Shown here: positions 54,967 to 60,693 of the stretch, one piece after another
How positions within the stretch are numbered: the stretch's first letter is position 1
Layout of the letters: every line of letters starts with the position of its first letter
Assembly: GCA_945877815.1 (NCBI GenBank)
Contig: CAMDWJ010000017.1
Span: forward strand, 26,219 to 90,218
Origin: Caenispirillum bisanense
Lineage (GTDB): Bacteria > Pseudomonadota > Alphaproteobacteria > Rhodospirillales > UBA2165
Length of the DNA stretch: 64,000 bases
Direction of reading: 5' to 3'
Made by a program: the position numbers and the translations under genes
The notes under the pieces: model-generated
What the model was told of the DNA's origin: nothing
Seen by the model: the letters and a program-made list of their open reading frames with translations, nothing else
Database searches by the model: none

Positions 54967-55616
54967 TCCCTGAAAAGTTTCACCGCGATGGTGCCGGACC
55001 GAAGATCGAGCTTCTCAAAACGATATCCACCCAAAAAATCATAAAAGGCCTGCGGCGTCCATATTTGGTGATCGTAGGGGCCCGGCGTCTCGCCGGTGCC
55101 ATCAGGCGTCGTGATGATGGCAAAATTGCGAACCGCGCGATGGATCTTGGCGAGCAGCACAGCCGGCTCGGCGACATGTTCGATGACCTCGACGCAGATC
55201 GCACAATCGAATGCGCCGTCTTCCGTCAGATCGAAGGCGGAGCGACAGGCAAATACCAGTTCGCCGGCGGCGGCTCGCGCGCTCTTCCGCGCCTGCGCGT
55301 CAGGCGACAGTGCATCGTCGCCGACCGCCTGAAACGCGGCCTCGAATTTCCCGGCAACGGCATCGGCGCACACGATCTCAGCAAGCCCGATCGCCAGTTC
55401 ATTATTGTCGATGCCGAAGACTGAGAGCCCGCGACGGAACGAGGCGAAACTCATCAGCCCGTCGCCACAGCCGATATCGAGGACGCGGCCCGCGTTCGGC
55501 AATTCAGCCATGATGTTTCTCACGAATGTCCGGTATCCCAGATAGTCCGCGAGATACCACTTCCAGTGATAGGCGCCGCCGATCTCGTATTTCCGGAACT
55601 CGTCGTTGTCCGTCAC
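54963..55616 (-). CDS. Class I SAM-dependent methyltransferase
   Basis: 217 aa. VLDIGCGDGLMSFASF is motif I, FGIDNNELAI motif II, and FDCAICVEVIEHVAEPAVLLAKIHRAV motifs IV-V, as in UbiG/BioC-type enzymes. KYEIGGAYHWKWYLADYLGYR at the start is typical of a sugar or lipid-linked group. Substrate unknown. It overlaps both neighbours by four bases, placing it after the CoxL-like gene in one transcript. Confidence 0.88.
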   Translation of the reverse strand: MTDNDEFRKYEIGGAYHWKWYLADYLGYRTFVRNIMAELPNAGRVLDIGCGDGLMSFASFRRGLSVFGIDNNELAIGLAEIVCADAVAGKFEAAFQAVGDDALSPDAQARKSARAAAGELVFACRSAFDLTEDGAFDCAICVEVIEHVAEPAVLLAKIHRAVRNFAIITTPDGTGETPGPYDHQIWTPQAFYDFLGGYRFEKLDLRSGTIAVKLFRD

Positions 55617-57946
55617 GGGGTCGGAGTCCGCGCCTCATTGATCGCACGCCAGACCTTTTCCGGAGTGCATGGCATATCGATGTGGCGGATGCCGAGCGGC
55701 GCCAGTGCGTCGTTGATGGCGTTCATCACGGCCGCGAGACCGCCAACAGTGCCGCATTCGCCGGCCCCTTTGACACCCATCGGATTGGTTTTGGTCGGCA
55801 CCGGATGGCTGCCGGTATCGAACATGCAGAAATCCGAGGCGCGCGGCATCGCGTAATCCATGAAGGAGCCGCTCAGTAATTGGCCGCTGGCCGGATCATA
55901 GACGATGTTTTCCATCATCGCCTGGCCGGCGGCTTGCGCGATGCCGCCCTGCATCTGGCCGCGCACCAAAGCGGGATTCAATTCGACGCCGACATCGTGT
56001 ACGGCGGTGTAGCGTTTCATTTCGATCTTGCCGGTCTCGGGATCCACCTCGACCTCGCAGACATGCGCGGCGTTCGGGATGTTCTGCACGTCGGGCGACC
56101 AAGTCGCGGTCTCGAACAATCCGATCTCAATCTCGGGCGGTAATTTGTTCGGCTGAAAGGCAGTCTTCGCCACATCCTTGAAGCCGACGGCGCGGTCGGT
56201 CCCGGCGACGCGGTAGCTGCCGTCGGCGAATTCGATATCGGCCGTCGCCGTCTCCAGCATGTGCGCCGCGATCCGCTTGCCCTTCTCGACGATCTTATCG
56301 ACCGCCTTGAAAACCGACGTGCCGCCGATGGTCGCGGTGCGCGCGGCCCCCGTGCCGGTGCCCCACGACAGCTTGCCGGTATCGCCCTCGATCACCTTGA
56401 TGGTTTCAGCCTCGATCCCCAACCGATCGGAGACGATCTGGGTATAGATCGTCTCATGGCTTTGGCCGCCCGCGGTCGAACCGACCAGCACCGTCACCGT
56501 GCCGCCGGGATCGAAACGCAACTCGGCGGTTTCGGGTGACGGTCCGGCCGAGGGATCGACCGACGAGGAAACGCCGACGCCATAGAGCTTGCCGCGCGCC
56601 TTAGCCGCCGCACGGCGCGCGGGTGCACCGGCGTAATCGGCCTGCGCCAAACATTTATCGAGGACTGCTTCGAATTCGCCGCAATCGTAGGCGCCGCCCG
56701 AAGCGACCCGATACGGCATGGCATGGGCGGGGATCAGATTGCGTCGGCGCAACTCGGCCGGATCGATTTTCATTTCAAACGCCGCGATATCGATGATGCG
56801 TTCCAGCGCGTAGGTGCCGGGCGCACCGCCAGGGGCGCGATAATTGGACACCGGCAAGGTATTGGTCAGCACCGAGGCTGCGCGGCCATGGACGGCAGGC
56901 ATCGCATAGGTGCCGACGACATTACGCGCGATGCCGAGCGTCGAATTGAAACCGAGCCAGGAAACATAAGCGCCGATATTGTTGTTGGAATTGCGGCGCA
57001 TGGCGAGGAACTTGCCGTTTTCATCCAAGGCCAACTCGTCCTCGACGACCATGTCGCGGGCTTGGTCGTCCGACATCAGGGCCTCGCCGCGCTCGCACAC
57101 CCATTTGACGGAGCGGCCGAGTTTCTTCGCGGCCCAAGCGACCAGCACGACCTCGGGGTAAAGTCCGCCCTTCATGCCGTAGGAGCCGCCGACATCGCCC
57201 GCGATCAAGGTGATCTGATGTTCGGGGATGTGAAACAATTCATCGGCAAGCAGCGAACGCCACACATAGGGGCGTTGGTGGCACGCATAGATGGTGGTGT
57301 GGTTCTGGCCGCGATCGTAGTGTGCTACGACCGCACGCGGCTCCATGGAACTGGCGGCGACGCGATTGACGCGCATGGTGGCGCGCACAACCTTGGCCGC
57401 CTTTTTGAAAGCCTCTTCGACCGCAGCCGCATTGCCGGCTTCCGTATACATGGGCTCGTTATCGGAGCATCCGTCCCATAGCGCCTGGGTGCCCGGCGCA
57501 TTAGCGCTCGCCGTATCGAGATGGACGGGAAGGACCGCGTAATCCACCATGATCGCTTCAGCCGCATCTTTCGCTTCGTTCACGCTGTCGGCGATCACGA
57601 GCGCCACCGCCTGGCCGATATGACGCACGCGATCCCCGATCAACGCGGGACGCGGCGGGCGGAAGGTCGGCGCTCCATTGCGCCGCTTGGACGGCGACGG
57701 GCCGATGATCTGGCCAAGATTGTCGGCTTGGTAATCCTTCGCGGTCAGGATCGCCACCACGCCCGGCATCTCGGCCGCCGCGCGCGTATCGATGCTTTTA
57801 ATTTCGGCATGGGCGTGGGGCGAGCGCAACACGATCGCATGGGCCTGACGCGGCAATTCAACGTCGGCGGCGAAACGGCCCTGCCCGGTTAGAAGCCTCG
57901 GCGCCTCGACCTGAGTGACCGACTGATTGATCGCGTAGCGGGTCAT
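55613..57946 (-). CDS. Xanthine dehydrogenase-family molybdenum subunit (CoxL-like, copy 1)
   Basis: 777 aa from MTRYAINQSVTQVEAPRLL at 57946; the track start 15 residues earlier is made by an intergenic repeat. ERPHAHAEI-like N-terminal domain, then the molybdopterin-cytosine-dinucleotide domains: GDVGGSYGMKGGLYPE, NYRAPGGAPGTYALER, GSTAGGQSHETIYTQ and KGAGECGTVGG with the catalytic Glu. The active-site loop is not the CSFR of true CO dehydrogenase. No CoxM or CoxS gene follows in the window, so partners must be encoded elsewhere. Confidence 0.92.
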   Translation of the reverse strand: MTRYAINQSVTQVEAPRLLTGQGRFAADVELPRQAHAIVLRSPHAHAEIKSIDTRAAAEMPGVVAILTAKDYQADNLGQIIGPSPSKRRNGAPTFRPPRPALIGDRVRHIGQAVALVIADSVNEAKDAAEAIMVDYAVLPVHLDTASANAPGTQALWDGCSDNEPMYTEAGNAAAVEEAFKKAAKVVRATMRVNRVAASSMEPRAVVAHYDRGQNHTTIYACHQRPYVWRSLLADELFHIPEHQITLIAGDVGGSYGMKGGLYPEVVLVAWAAKKLGRSVKWVCERGEALMSDDQARDMVVEDELALDENGKFLAMRRNSNNNIGAYVSWLGFNSTLGIARNVVGTYAMPAVHGRAASVLTNTLPVSNYRAPGGAPGTYALERIIDIAAFEMKIDPAELRRRNLIPAHAMPYRVASGGAYDCGEFEAVLDKCLAQADYAGAPARRAAAKARGKLYGVGVSSSVDPSAGPSPETAELRFDPGGTVTVLVGSTAGGQSHETIYTQIVSDRLGIEAETIKVIEGDTGKLSWGTGTGAARTATIGGTSVFKAVDKIVEKGKRIAAHMLETATADIEFADGSYRVAGTDRAVGFKDVAKTAFQPNKLPPEIEIGLFETATWSPDVQNIPNAAHVCEVEVDPETGKIEMKRYTAVHDVGVELNPALVRGQMQGGIAQAAGQAMMENIVYDPASGQLLSGSFMDYAMPRASDFCMFDTGSHPVPTKTNPMGVKGAGECGTVGGLAAVMNAINDALAPLGIRHIDMPCTPEKVWRAINEARTPTP

Positions 57947-57964
57947 GCTTTTTGTCCCCCGGCT

Positions 57965-58049
57965 CGTCATGCCCGGACTTGATCCGGGCATCCATCTTTG
58001 ATTGCACCGTCCGGGAAGATGGATTGCCGGGTCAAGCCCGGCAATGACG
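57965..58049. repeat. Composite two-hairpin intergenic repeat, family R2
   Basis: CGTCATGCCCGGACTTGAT... forms a hairpin with ATCCGGGCATCC, and a second hairpin GGATTGCCGGG/CCCGGCAATGACG follows, with AAGATGG arms linking them (CATCTT and AAGATGG). The same architecture recurs, interrupted, at 63006-63370 and inside the inserted element at 63108-63248. It lies upstream of the CoxL gene start. Confidence 0.8.
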
Positions 58050-58069
58050 ACTAATCTGTTCAGTTCCGT

Positions 58070-58211
58070 ATCGACAGAGACTCTACATTTGCTCTACCGA
58101 ATTTCGAGAGTCTTCTACACGGACTCTACATTTCCTCTACATCTTCTCTACACGAACTCTACATTTTCTAGACAGAAACTCGTCCATTTCACCGGCGATT
58201 CTCTACATCAG
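58070..58211. repeat. 11-bp-phased tandem array of CTCTACA heptamers
   Basis: CTCTACA or near-copies begin at 58081, 58092, 58113, 58124, 58135, 58146, 58157 and 58201. All fit an 11-base step except for a one-base loss before 58113. Decayed units fill 58070 (ATCGACA), 58168 (CTAGACA), 58179 (CTCGTCC) and 58190. Each heptamer is followed by four bases, often TTTN. The array lies 124-265 bases upstream of the copy-1 CoxL start and downstream of copy 2. Seven-base direct repeats with four-base spacers are how OmpR/PhoB-class regulators bind, which makes a regulator array possible; simple repeat expansion is the alternative. Confidence 0.7.
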
Positions 58212-58331
58212 GAGAGCATTTTTCCCGGAAAACCGCCGTTTCTTTGTCGCCGACCCCGGCGTGAGCGCCATCCGAGACGCTGTAACAGAGACCGCGATTC
58301 AAGGTAGGTAGACAGGGCTCCGAAGTCAATA

Positions 58332-58359
58332 AATTAATTCCAATTATGAGGAATTAATT
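58332..58359. terminator. AT-rich 10-bp inverted repeat after the second CoxL gene
   Basis: AATTAATTCC and its exact inverse GGAATTAATT surround eight bases, starting 10 bases after the stop of the copy-2 gene on the minus strand. It could end that transcript or be an operator. The other parts of the 58050-58368 gap hold the 11-bp array and nothing else recognisable. Confidence 0.5.
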
Positions 58360-58368
58360 ATGTGACGC

Positions 58369-60693
58369 TCAAGCTCGGCCGCTGCCTTGAATCGCCCGCC
58401 AGACTTTTTCGGGCGTCGCCGGCATATCGATATGGGTGATGCCGAGCGGCGACAATGCATCGACCACAGCATTCATAATGGCGCCGAGCCCGCCGACATT
58501 GCCGGCCTCGCCCGCCCCCTTGATGCCCAGCGGATTGACCTTGGTCGGCACCGGATTGTTGGCGCATGCGAATTGCACCATATCGTCGGCGCGCGGCATG
58601 CCGTAATCCATGAAAGAGCCAGTGATGAGCTGACCGGCCTCGTCATAGACGATGCCCTCGCTCAGGGCCTGACCCACCGCCTGGCCGATGCCGCCGTGGA
58701 TCTGGCCTTCGAGCGTGAGTTTGTTGATGACCACACCAACATCGTCGACCACCGAATATTTGAGGATTTCGGTGCGTCCGGTCTGCGGATCGATCTCGAC
58801 CTCGCAGATATGGCAGCCGTTCGGGAAGGTCGGGATATTGGGCGAAAAGGTCGCGGTGTCCGATAGACCCGGCTCGAACCCTTTGGGCAGCTTGGCCGGT
58901 TCGTAGGCCGCGCGCGCGATGGCCTGCAGGCCGATGGAGCGATCGGTGCCGGCGACGCGGAACGAGCCGTTCGCAAATTCGATATCGCCGGTGCCCGCCT
59001 CCAACAGATGTGCTGCGAGCACGCGGCCCCTGGCGATCACCTTGTCGGCGGCATTGGCGGCGGCCGAACTACCGAGCACCGCCGTGCGCGACGCAAACGT
59101 GCCGCCGCCATGCGGCGCCATATCGGTATCGCCCCACAGGATGCGGATATGATCGGCGTCGAGCCCGAGGCGATCGGACAGCACGACCTTATACATGGTC
59201 TCGTGTCCCTGGCCGTGGCTGATCGAGCCCGCGATGACGGTGAGCGTGCCGGACGCATCGAAGTTGAGGCGCACCGTCTCGCCCTCGGCATTGGCGGTCT
59301 GCTCGACAAAATTGCAGATGCCGATGCCCAGCAATTTTCCACGTGCTTTCGCCTCAGCGCGGCGTTTCTCGAAACCCGCGACGTCGCCCATCTCGAGCGC
59401 CATATCCATGTTCTTCTCGAACTCGCCGCAATCGTAGGTAAAGGTGAGCCCGGTCTTGAAGGGCATAGCGGCCGGCGCGATGAGATTGCGCCGGCGGATC
59501 TCGGCGCGATCGATTTTCATTTCGCGCGCGGCGGTATCGATGAGACGTTCGAGGATATAAGTCGTCTCGGGCCGACCCGCGCCACGGAACGGGCCGGTCG
59601 GCGCAGTATTGGTGAAAACGACAGACGCCTCGACATAGATCGCCGGCGTACGATAAAGCCCGGCGAAGCCGCCGAGATGCGCGGACGGCGTGATCAATCC
59701 CCCCGATTCGAGCCAGGCGCCGACGCTGCAAGTGTTGGAGACGCGAAGTCCGAGAAAGGTTCCCTCCGCATCAAGCGCCAGTTCGGCTTCGCTGATCTGG
59801 TCGCGGTCGTGATAATCGGAGAGATGCCCTTCGGCACGCTCACAAATCCATTTGACCGGGCGGCCGACCTTGGACGAAACCCACAGGCAGGCATGGTGTT
59901 CCGGATATTGACCGGACTTCATCCCAAAACTGCCGCCGACATCGCCCGCGACAACACGTACGTTGGTTTCGGGAATCTTGAAGATATGTTTCGCGATGCC
60001 GTGGCGCACGCTGTAGGGGCGCTGGCTTGCGGCATAAAGAGTATAGCGGCCTGATCCCTGGTCGTAATCGCCGATGCAGGCGCGCGGCTCCATCGTATTC
60101 GCGGTGACGCGATTGACCTTCACCTTCAGCTTGGTGACATGGACCGCCCGGGCGAACGCCGCCTCCACCTTCGCCTTGTCGCCCTCGATAAACAAAAAGG
60201 CTTCGTTGTCGGGGCAACCCGCATGAATGACGGGGGTGTCGAGCAAACGCGCTTTGAGCGGATCCGTCAACGCCGGCAGGGGCGCATAATCGATGCGCAC
60301 GCGCTCGGCCGCGTCACGCGCTTCGTCCAATGTTTCAGCGACGACAATGCAGACCGCCTCGCCGGCGACGCGAACCTTATCGAACGCCAGGGCCGGACGG
60401 ACGGGGCGGAACATTGGCGAGCCGTCGCGCCGCTTGCGCGGGAATGCCGGCGGATGATCGCCGAAATCACCGGCCGCCCAATCCGCGCCTGTGAGGATCG
60501 CAAGCACACCCGGCATTTGCTGGGCCGCGCGCACATCGATGGACGTGATCGTCGCGTGACCGTGCGGCGAACGCACGAAGAAAGCATGCGCCATCGCGGG
60601 CAGGACGAAATCGTCGATATATTTGCCTTCGCCCCGCAAAAGGCGCGGATCTTCGGTGCGCGGCACCGATTGGCTGAGCGCGAATTGGCCCAT
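58369..60693 (-). CDS. Xanthine dehydrogenase-family molybdenum subunit (CoxL-like, copy 2)
   Basis: 774 aa. Same domain order as copy 1: QSVPRTEDPRLLRGEGKYIDD, GDVGGSFGMKSGQYPE, FRGAGRPETTYILERLID, GSISHGQGHETMYK and KGAGEAGNVGG with the catalytic Glu. GPFRGAGRPE is the form II CoxL loop, again not CO dehydrogenase proper. The two copies are clearly related but well diverged and separated by 420 bases of repeat-rich DNA. Each may oxidise a different aldehyde or heterocycle. Confidence 0.92.
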   Translation of the reverse strand: MGQFALSQSVPRTEDPRLLRGEGKYIDDFVLPAMAHAFFVRSPHGHATITSIDVRAAQQMPGVLAILTGADWAAGDFGDHPPAFPRKRRDGSPMFRPVRPALAFDKVRVAGEAVCIVVAETLDEARDAAERVRIDYAPLPALTDPLKARLLDTPVIHAGCPDNEAFLFIEGDKAKVEAAFARAVHVTKLKVKVNRVTANTMEPRACIGDYDQGSGRYTLYAASQRPYSVRHGIAKHIFKIPETNVRVVAGDVGGSFGMKSGQYPEHHACLWVSSKVGRPVKWICERAEGHLSDYHDRDQISEAELALDAEGTFLGLRVSNTCSVGAWLESGGLITPSAHLGGFAGLYRTPAIYVEASVVFTNTAPTGPFRGAGRPETTYILERLIDTAAREMKIDRAEIRRRNLIAPAAMPFKTGLTFTYDCGEFEKNMDMALEMGDVAGFEKRRAEAKARGKLLGIGICNFVEQTANAEGETVRLNFDASGTLTVIAGSISHGQGHETMYKVVLSDRLGLDADHIRILWGDTDMAPHGGGTFASRTAVLGSSAAANAADKVIARGRVLAAHLLEAGTGDIEFANGSFRVAGTDRSIGLQAIARAAYEPAKLPKGFEPGLSDTATFSPNIPTFPNGCHICEVEIDPQTGRTEILKYSVVDDVGVVINKLTLEGQIHGGIGQAVGQALSEGIVYDEAGQLITGSFMDYGMPRADDMVQFACANNPVPTKVNPLGIKGAGEAGNVGGLGAIMNAVVDALSPLGITHIDMPATPEKVWRAIQGSGRA

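Follow-up and report, generated by a model that had tools for sequence, protein, structure and literature searches.

The window, by which the whole stretch of 64,000 nucleotides analysed here is meant, contains an array of short direct repeats at positions 58070–58211, located between two CoxL-like genes (Table 1). Both genes are encoded on the minus strand, so that the array follows the 3′ end of one and precedes the 5′ end of the other, in agreement with the first-pass annotation, which had placed it upstream of one of them. That annotation had also described the array as heptamers CTCTACA on an 11-bp step, and this description is correct: there are 13 slots in an 11-bp register, interrupted by a single 10-bp step between 58103 and 58113 (a 1-bp slip), with six exact and two near-exact copies of the heptamer. 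The lag-11 identity for the whole window peaks at the array (0.49, compared to a mean of 0.25 with a standard deviation of 0.04). Furthermore, the pattern CTCTACA-N4-CTCTACA with at most two mismatches yields seven matches, all inside the array, against 0.05 expected, while the spacers hold 0.16–0.25 bits per position. These values uphold the earlier proposal that the copies are helically phased sites of the type bound by proteins. Spacer identity in the window array is 0.40 for adjacent pairs compared to 0.31 for random pairs.

Table 1. Features at and around the repeat array, with positions in the window
Feature	Position	Strand	Basis or domains
CoxL-like gene, downstream neighbour, outside the element	55613..57946	(-)	Ald_Xan_dh_C, MoCoBD_1, MoCoBD_2
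Array, unit TGTAGAG-N4 on the minus strand	58070..58207	(-)	pattern match and lag-11 identity
CTCTACA cores, exact (n=6)	58081, 58124, 58135, 58146, 58157, 58201
CTCTACA cores, 1 mismatch	58092, 58113
CTCTACA cores, 2 mismatches	58070, 58168
CTCTACA cores, decayed, 3-5 mismatches	58103, 58179, 58190
Leader, promoter to array; occupies the place of the TerS gene in complete copies	58208..58300	(-)	alignment
-10-like TACCTT, 17 bp from -35; family consensus TAGACT	58301..58306	(-)	consensus only
-35-like TTGACT, family promoter	58324..58329	(-)	consensus only
AT-rich motif TAATTGGAATTA conserved in the family, 5′ of the promoter	58335..58346	(-)	shared by family copies
CoxL-like gene, upstream neighbour, outside the element	58369..60693	(-)	Ald_Xan_dh_C, MoCoBD_1, MoCoBD_2

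The promoter elements of the window copy span 58346–58301 on the minus strand, approximately 90 bp ahead of the array, and no exact LexA box is present at this promoter. Between the array and the start of the CoxL-like gene, a palindromic repeat pair (GTCATGCCCGGACTTGATCCGGGCATCCATC ... GATGGATTGCCGGGTCAAGCCCGGCAATGACG) is found at 57962–58050. Pieces of this pair match many places in the genomes G001 (a sister species) and G008, which identifies it as a separate REP-like dispersed repeat.

A genome-wide search for further arrays, as suggested beforehand, was performed on the window's own genome (G000; 3.98 Mb, 84 contigs) and revealed a dispersed family. The three-unit pattern TCKACA-N5 gives 46 exact, partly overlapping matches, with none for the reversed control, and once mismatches are allowed TCKACA-type arrays are found at about 25 places. 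Together with four arrays of the ATGCCTAGA type, the genome holds about 30 arrays in total, counts that derive from pattern searches and are minima. The arrays are intergenic, with none overlapping a predicted gene. For the 25 arrays, reading of the translated proteins showed that the neighbours are ordinary chromosomal genes unrelated to each other; for 16 of them, the next downstream gene is in convergent orientation.

The copies have a common layout over about 350 bp, which, read opposite to TCGACA, consists of TTAATTGGAATTATTTTC, TTGACT, 17–18 bp, TAGACT, then some 100 bp of leader and the 11-nt units. The order is the same in one direction: promoter (AATTGGAATTA..TTGACT), short leader, then array (TGTCGATN4 or TGTMGAGN4). 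The 11-nt register is kept even through two units with fixed deviant forms, TGTTTAT and GGACTAT. With three mismatches allowed, the promoter motif occurs 19 times, and in four cases an array with another 11-nt unit, ATGCCTAGANN, follows. In addition, exact LexA boxes lie upstream of some of the arrays (on C9, C10, C14 and C34) that lack the linked gene described below; promoter and LexA calls rest on consensus. A search for the four-unit pattern TGTMGA-N5 across 85,462 genomes gave, among the matches listed, mostly isolated hits from unrelated taxa. Within the order, three-unit TCKACA-N5 matches just one further genome, G185 (L072, L139), where a single TCGACAGTATT tandem repeat looks like an ordinary minisatellite.

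The window's own genome (G000) encodes four proteins of the terminase small subunit (TerS) family PF03592 (Terminase_2), scoring 36–54 bits each against a curated cut-off of 26.1. Three of the four genes are followed by an array whose start lies no more than about 75 bp past the stop codon, and the unit differs from gene to gene: TGTCGAT behind the gene on C36, TGTCGAG behind that on C39 and ATGCCTAGA behind that on C22. Their products are 158–188 amino acids long. The TerS proteins match the phrog_51 TerS family, and a profile match at the sequence level to SF6 TerS in the PDB (4zc3, 3zqp, 2cmp; ~1e-9) extends over the helix-turn-helix (HTH) DNA-binding domain. Two copies of the family promoter lead into a TerS gene, while the third TerS gene is preceded by a promoter variant and followed by its array. 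At the promoters of the C36 and C22 genes an exact GTTC-N7-GTTC box is present, which we take to be the alphaproteobacterial LexA site. The deviant unit GGACTAT stands in the same place in the C36 array and in TerS-less copies. No Terminase_6N large subunit was found in this genome in a search limited to Terminase_6N. The fourth solo TerS-like gene (L187:7367-7993, G000:C3) has a TTGACT promoter and at most a short, imperfect array past its stop codon. A second dispersed set, with the unit ATGCCTAGANN / ATGCACAGNNN and the same promoter, was observed at G000:C1:180938, C12:2952, C6:55522 and C29:9532 (L178, L179, L180 and L182), and the arrays of these loci match that of the C22 TerS gene.

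The linkage between solo TerS genes and arrays extends to other genera. With a profile built from the four TerS proteins, 317 genomes of the order were compared, many of them fragmented assemblies, and 47 of these, belonging to 28 genera, proved to contain relatives; 74 TerS frames were taken with their downstream DNA. Arrays begin at or shortly past the TerS stop codon in many of these loci, with different units, such as GACGAC-N5, ATGTCCACC.., ATGNTTACC.. and ATGATGAG.., and 10-bp versions, for example AAAGGTCGCC and TGACANNTGC. A lag-10/11 identity of at least 0.5 follows 24 of 66 TerS stops; among 257 other stops taken from these loci there is one such case. A strict LexA box is present upstream of 15 of 67 TerS genes, against an expectation of 0.35 in total (0.0053 each). 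The corresponding p-values of 1e-17 and 2e-20 are too small, since the loci are related to each other. The arrays at or above 0.5 are spread over sixteen genomes that belong to several families; 35 of the 66 TerS genes are without a clear array by this measure (<0.45). When the seven unit classes are placed on the TerS tree, six changes suffice, which is the minimum, whereas 200 shuffled assignments needed 15.6 on average and never as few as six. Genome G063 alone holds three unit classes, and for each of them the nearest TerS is one with the same unit in another genome. This agreement between unit and tree could be explained by linkage alone.

Searches limited to Terminase_6N detected no large subunit in 10 of 12 array-rich genomes. 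The one Terminase_6N large subunit of G063 adjoins an array-less TerS gene (contig C211), as expected for a real prophage. No relatives of the solo TerS proteins were confirmed in IMG/VR, and phage records gave only weak relatives, at about 33–37% identity.

Dispersal of gene-less copies was also observed in one other genus, of another family. Each of the eight genomes searched contains arrays of four GACGAC-N5 units, with between 3 and 83 overlapping matches and none for the control. Array places far outnumber TerS genes in many of these eight genomes. In the four loci that were read, the 260 bp ahead of the array contain no full TerS gene, and the promoter of the genus is present in three. 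In one leader (L274), apparently both ends of the TerS frame are kept (start MPT.., end MTTNDDIS..; compare the full gene L194), so that this copy appears to be an internal deletion. Presence and absence of copies were further compared with the sister species G001 (Rhodospirillaceae bacterium RE-9nov16-338, a metagenome assembly). The arrays on C57 and C34 and the C22 TerS cassette, the latter with a changed unit, are found there at orthologous places, and the C33 copy is missing together with a neighbouring gene. The window array is absent as well, the orthologous CoxL genes lying 24 bp apart. With one outgroup compared, this reflects either an insertion here or a deletion in G001; the tight 24-bp spacing favors insertion. 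No target-site duplication was recognised at the window locus.

Few gene-bearing and many gene-less dispersed intergenic copies are a feature shared with REP/RAYT systems; however, the protein here is TerS-like instead of a tyrosine transposase, and the repeats are direct and phased instead of palindromic. Similarities also exist with the TerS proteins and pac sites of phages. As in SPP1/SF6 and ES18, the protein belongs to PF03592 with an N-terminal HTH, and SPP1 has a direct-repeat site beside its TerS gene (PMC4737164). In contrast to the phage arrangement, the genes described here are solo chromosomal genes without an adjacent large subunit, whereas in ES18 and a Bordetella phage TerL is located directly behind TerS. 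Long regular 10–11-bp arrays 3′ of TerS and many dispersed gene-less copies likewise set the family apart. SaPI/PICI elements are also chromosomal elements with their own TerS, and SaPI operon I is under LexA control (PMC6092414), but no integrase, replication or capsid-remodelling genes were seen among the neighbours read as translations, and the cassette is only about 0.35–1 kb and present in many copies. The TAACTGA repeats of Beggiatoaceae (PMC4679880) are likewise directly repeated heptamers that are scattered between genes and have no known function. Their layout differs: the heptamer is another one and is mostly found a few bases before start codons, and the paper makes no mention of a spacer or of a link to terminases or phages. 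The family described here is placed with the phage TerS/pac kind, rather than with the PICIs or with the proven pac sites. The open-access literature yielded no description of solo TerS, TerS-linked repeat arrays or domesticated TerS. The protein family is known; a solo, LexA-boxed chromosomal TerS gene combined with a regular array and with gene-less copies at dispersed places appears to be undescribed.

The window array is probably a degenerate, TerS-less member of this family of chromosomal elements, and most likely serves as a binding site for a TerS ring. A complete element consists of a promoter, often LexA-boxed, a solo TerS-like gene and about 9–13 units with an 11-bp step, or a 10-bp step in some lineages. 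TerS-like rings supplied in trans by the complete copies would then occupy the TerS-less arrays. With HTH domains positioned around the circumference of the ring and sites spaced one helical turn apart, the DNA would wrap around the protein, as at a pac site. Judged from sequence, binding of the array by the TerS protein with wrapping of the DNA is the part of the proposed mechanism that we consider likely. It has a parallel in the SPP1 pac site, with its direct repeats beside the TerS gene (PMC4737164), whereas the pac-type TerS proteins studied so far show weak, little-specific DNA binding in vitro (PMC9611059, PMC4737164) and HK97 TerS encircles DNA (PMC11331095). The window copy itself counts against this reading with its decayed units and the missing exact LexA box. 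The earlier guess of an iteron-like locus came nearest to it, although the linked protein is TerS-like and not a replication initiator.

Under DNA damage or phage growth, bound arrays could act as pac-like marks that recruit a phage large terminase to host DNA, resulting in transduction-like transfer or in interference with the phage. We regard this step as tentative and clearly less probable than the binding itself. The LexA control of SaPI operon I, which is needed for packaging (PMC6092414), provides a precedent for LexA control of a satellite TerS. The absence of Terminase_6N from this genome and from 10 of the 12 array-rich genomes leaves a packaging role without a resident partner, as far as Terminase_6N is concerned. 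More doubtful still is the broadest reading, namely a new class of element in which an SOS-linked solo TerS and about 30 phased wrapping sites mark the chromosome for phage packaging, with gene transfer or misdirected packaging as a defence as the outcome.

Several other explanations have to be weighed against TerS binding. The first-pass annotation had compared the array to the sites of OmpR/PhoB regulators, and such an operator array, with 11-bp direct repeats, might serve the downstream CoxL gene or a regulon. The comparison has some appeal, since pho-box-like sites have the same layout of a heptamer and a four-base spacer and the window copy does lie 5′ of a CoxL gene. It does not hold for the family: some 30 arrays stand beside unrelated genes, mostly facing convergent gene ends (16 of 25), and they are located 3′ of the family promoter, in complete copies directly behind a solo TerS gene, an arrangement repeated behind TerS stops in many genera. 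An operator would be expected over or upstream of the promoter that it regulates, and with dispersal and context also against it, an operator function is very unlikely. Growth of a plain minisatellite by slippage is even less credible and can practically be dismissed. The tandem layout, the slightly greater likeness of adjacent spacers and the nearly perfect repeat of the G063 array L214 are what slippage would leave, yet the cores are kept while the spacers are near random, separate arrays have a common core and step, and the linkage to TerS is left unaccounted for. Neighbouring units are not alike over their whole length, spacer included, and the decaying minisatellite proposed earlier is rejected with it.

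An unlikely, though less remote, explanation is that the 11-nt repeats act as a transcript, in a multicopy small RNA or leader RNA. Promoter-like sequence is present ahead of nearly every array, and pairing in a leader hairpin is kept, with a few compensatory changes. The covariation is weak, however (4 of 25 pairs, covariation term -0.6), the product of the linked gene is an HTH protein of the DNA-binding type, and in every lineage the step corresponds to one turn of the DNA helix. A search of seven array loci with Rfam at the gathering score matched only a tRNA. We assign a similarly low probability to a nonautonomous mobile repeat with the promoter and array as its ends, for which TerS would have been co-opted as a mobility accessory without a packaging role. 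Full and internally deleted copies, the many TerS-less copies per TerS gene and the differences in presence between species all agree with mobility, but no transposase or integrase was found at the loci examined, no target-site duplication marks the window locus, and some copies hold orthologous places. Mobility of the repeat is compatible with binding of TerS to the array.

How TerS recognises DNA, by wrapping or by threading it through the ring, has been described as a major debate (PMC11331095, PMC9611059). The pac sites studied so far are without a clear code, whereas the present family offers many TerS-array pairs with a clean unit and a fixed 10- or 11-bp step. If TerS does bind these arrays, both wrapping versus threading and specificity become testable, since changes of the unit track the TerS protein. 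Furthermore, the family shows that a component of phage packaging has become established as a dispersed, SOS-linked element in the chromosomes of a single order. Transduction and interference with phages may be affected by it, and such effects are measurable. Beside the array-linked genes, several species have a single TerS-like gene of family f22 per genome (L199, L200, L203, L204, L206 and L210). No array follows this gene, which possibly represents an older role of the protein family in the chromosome.
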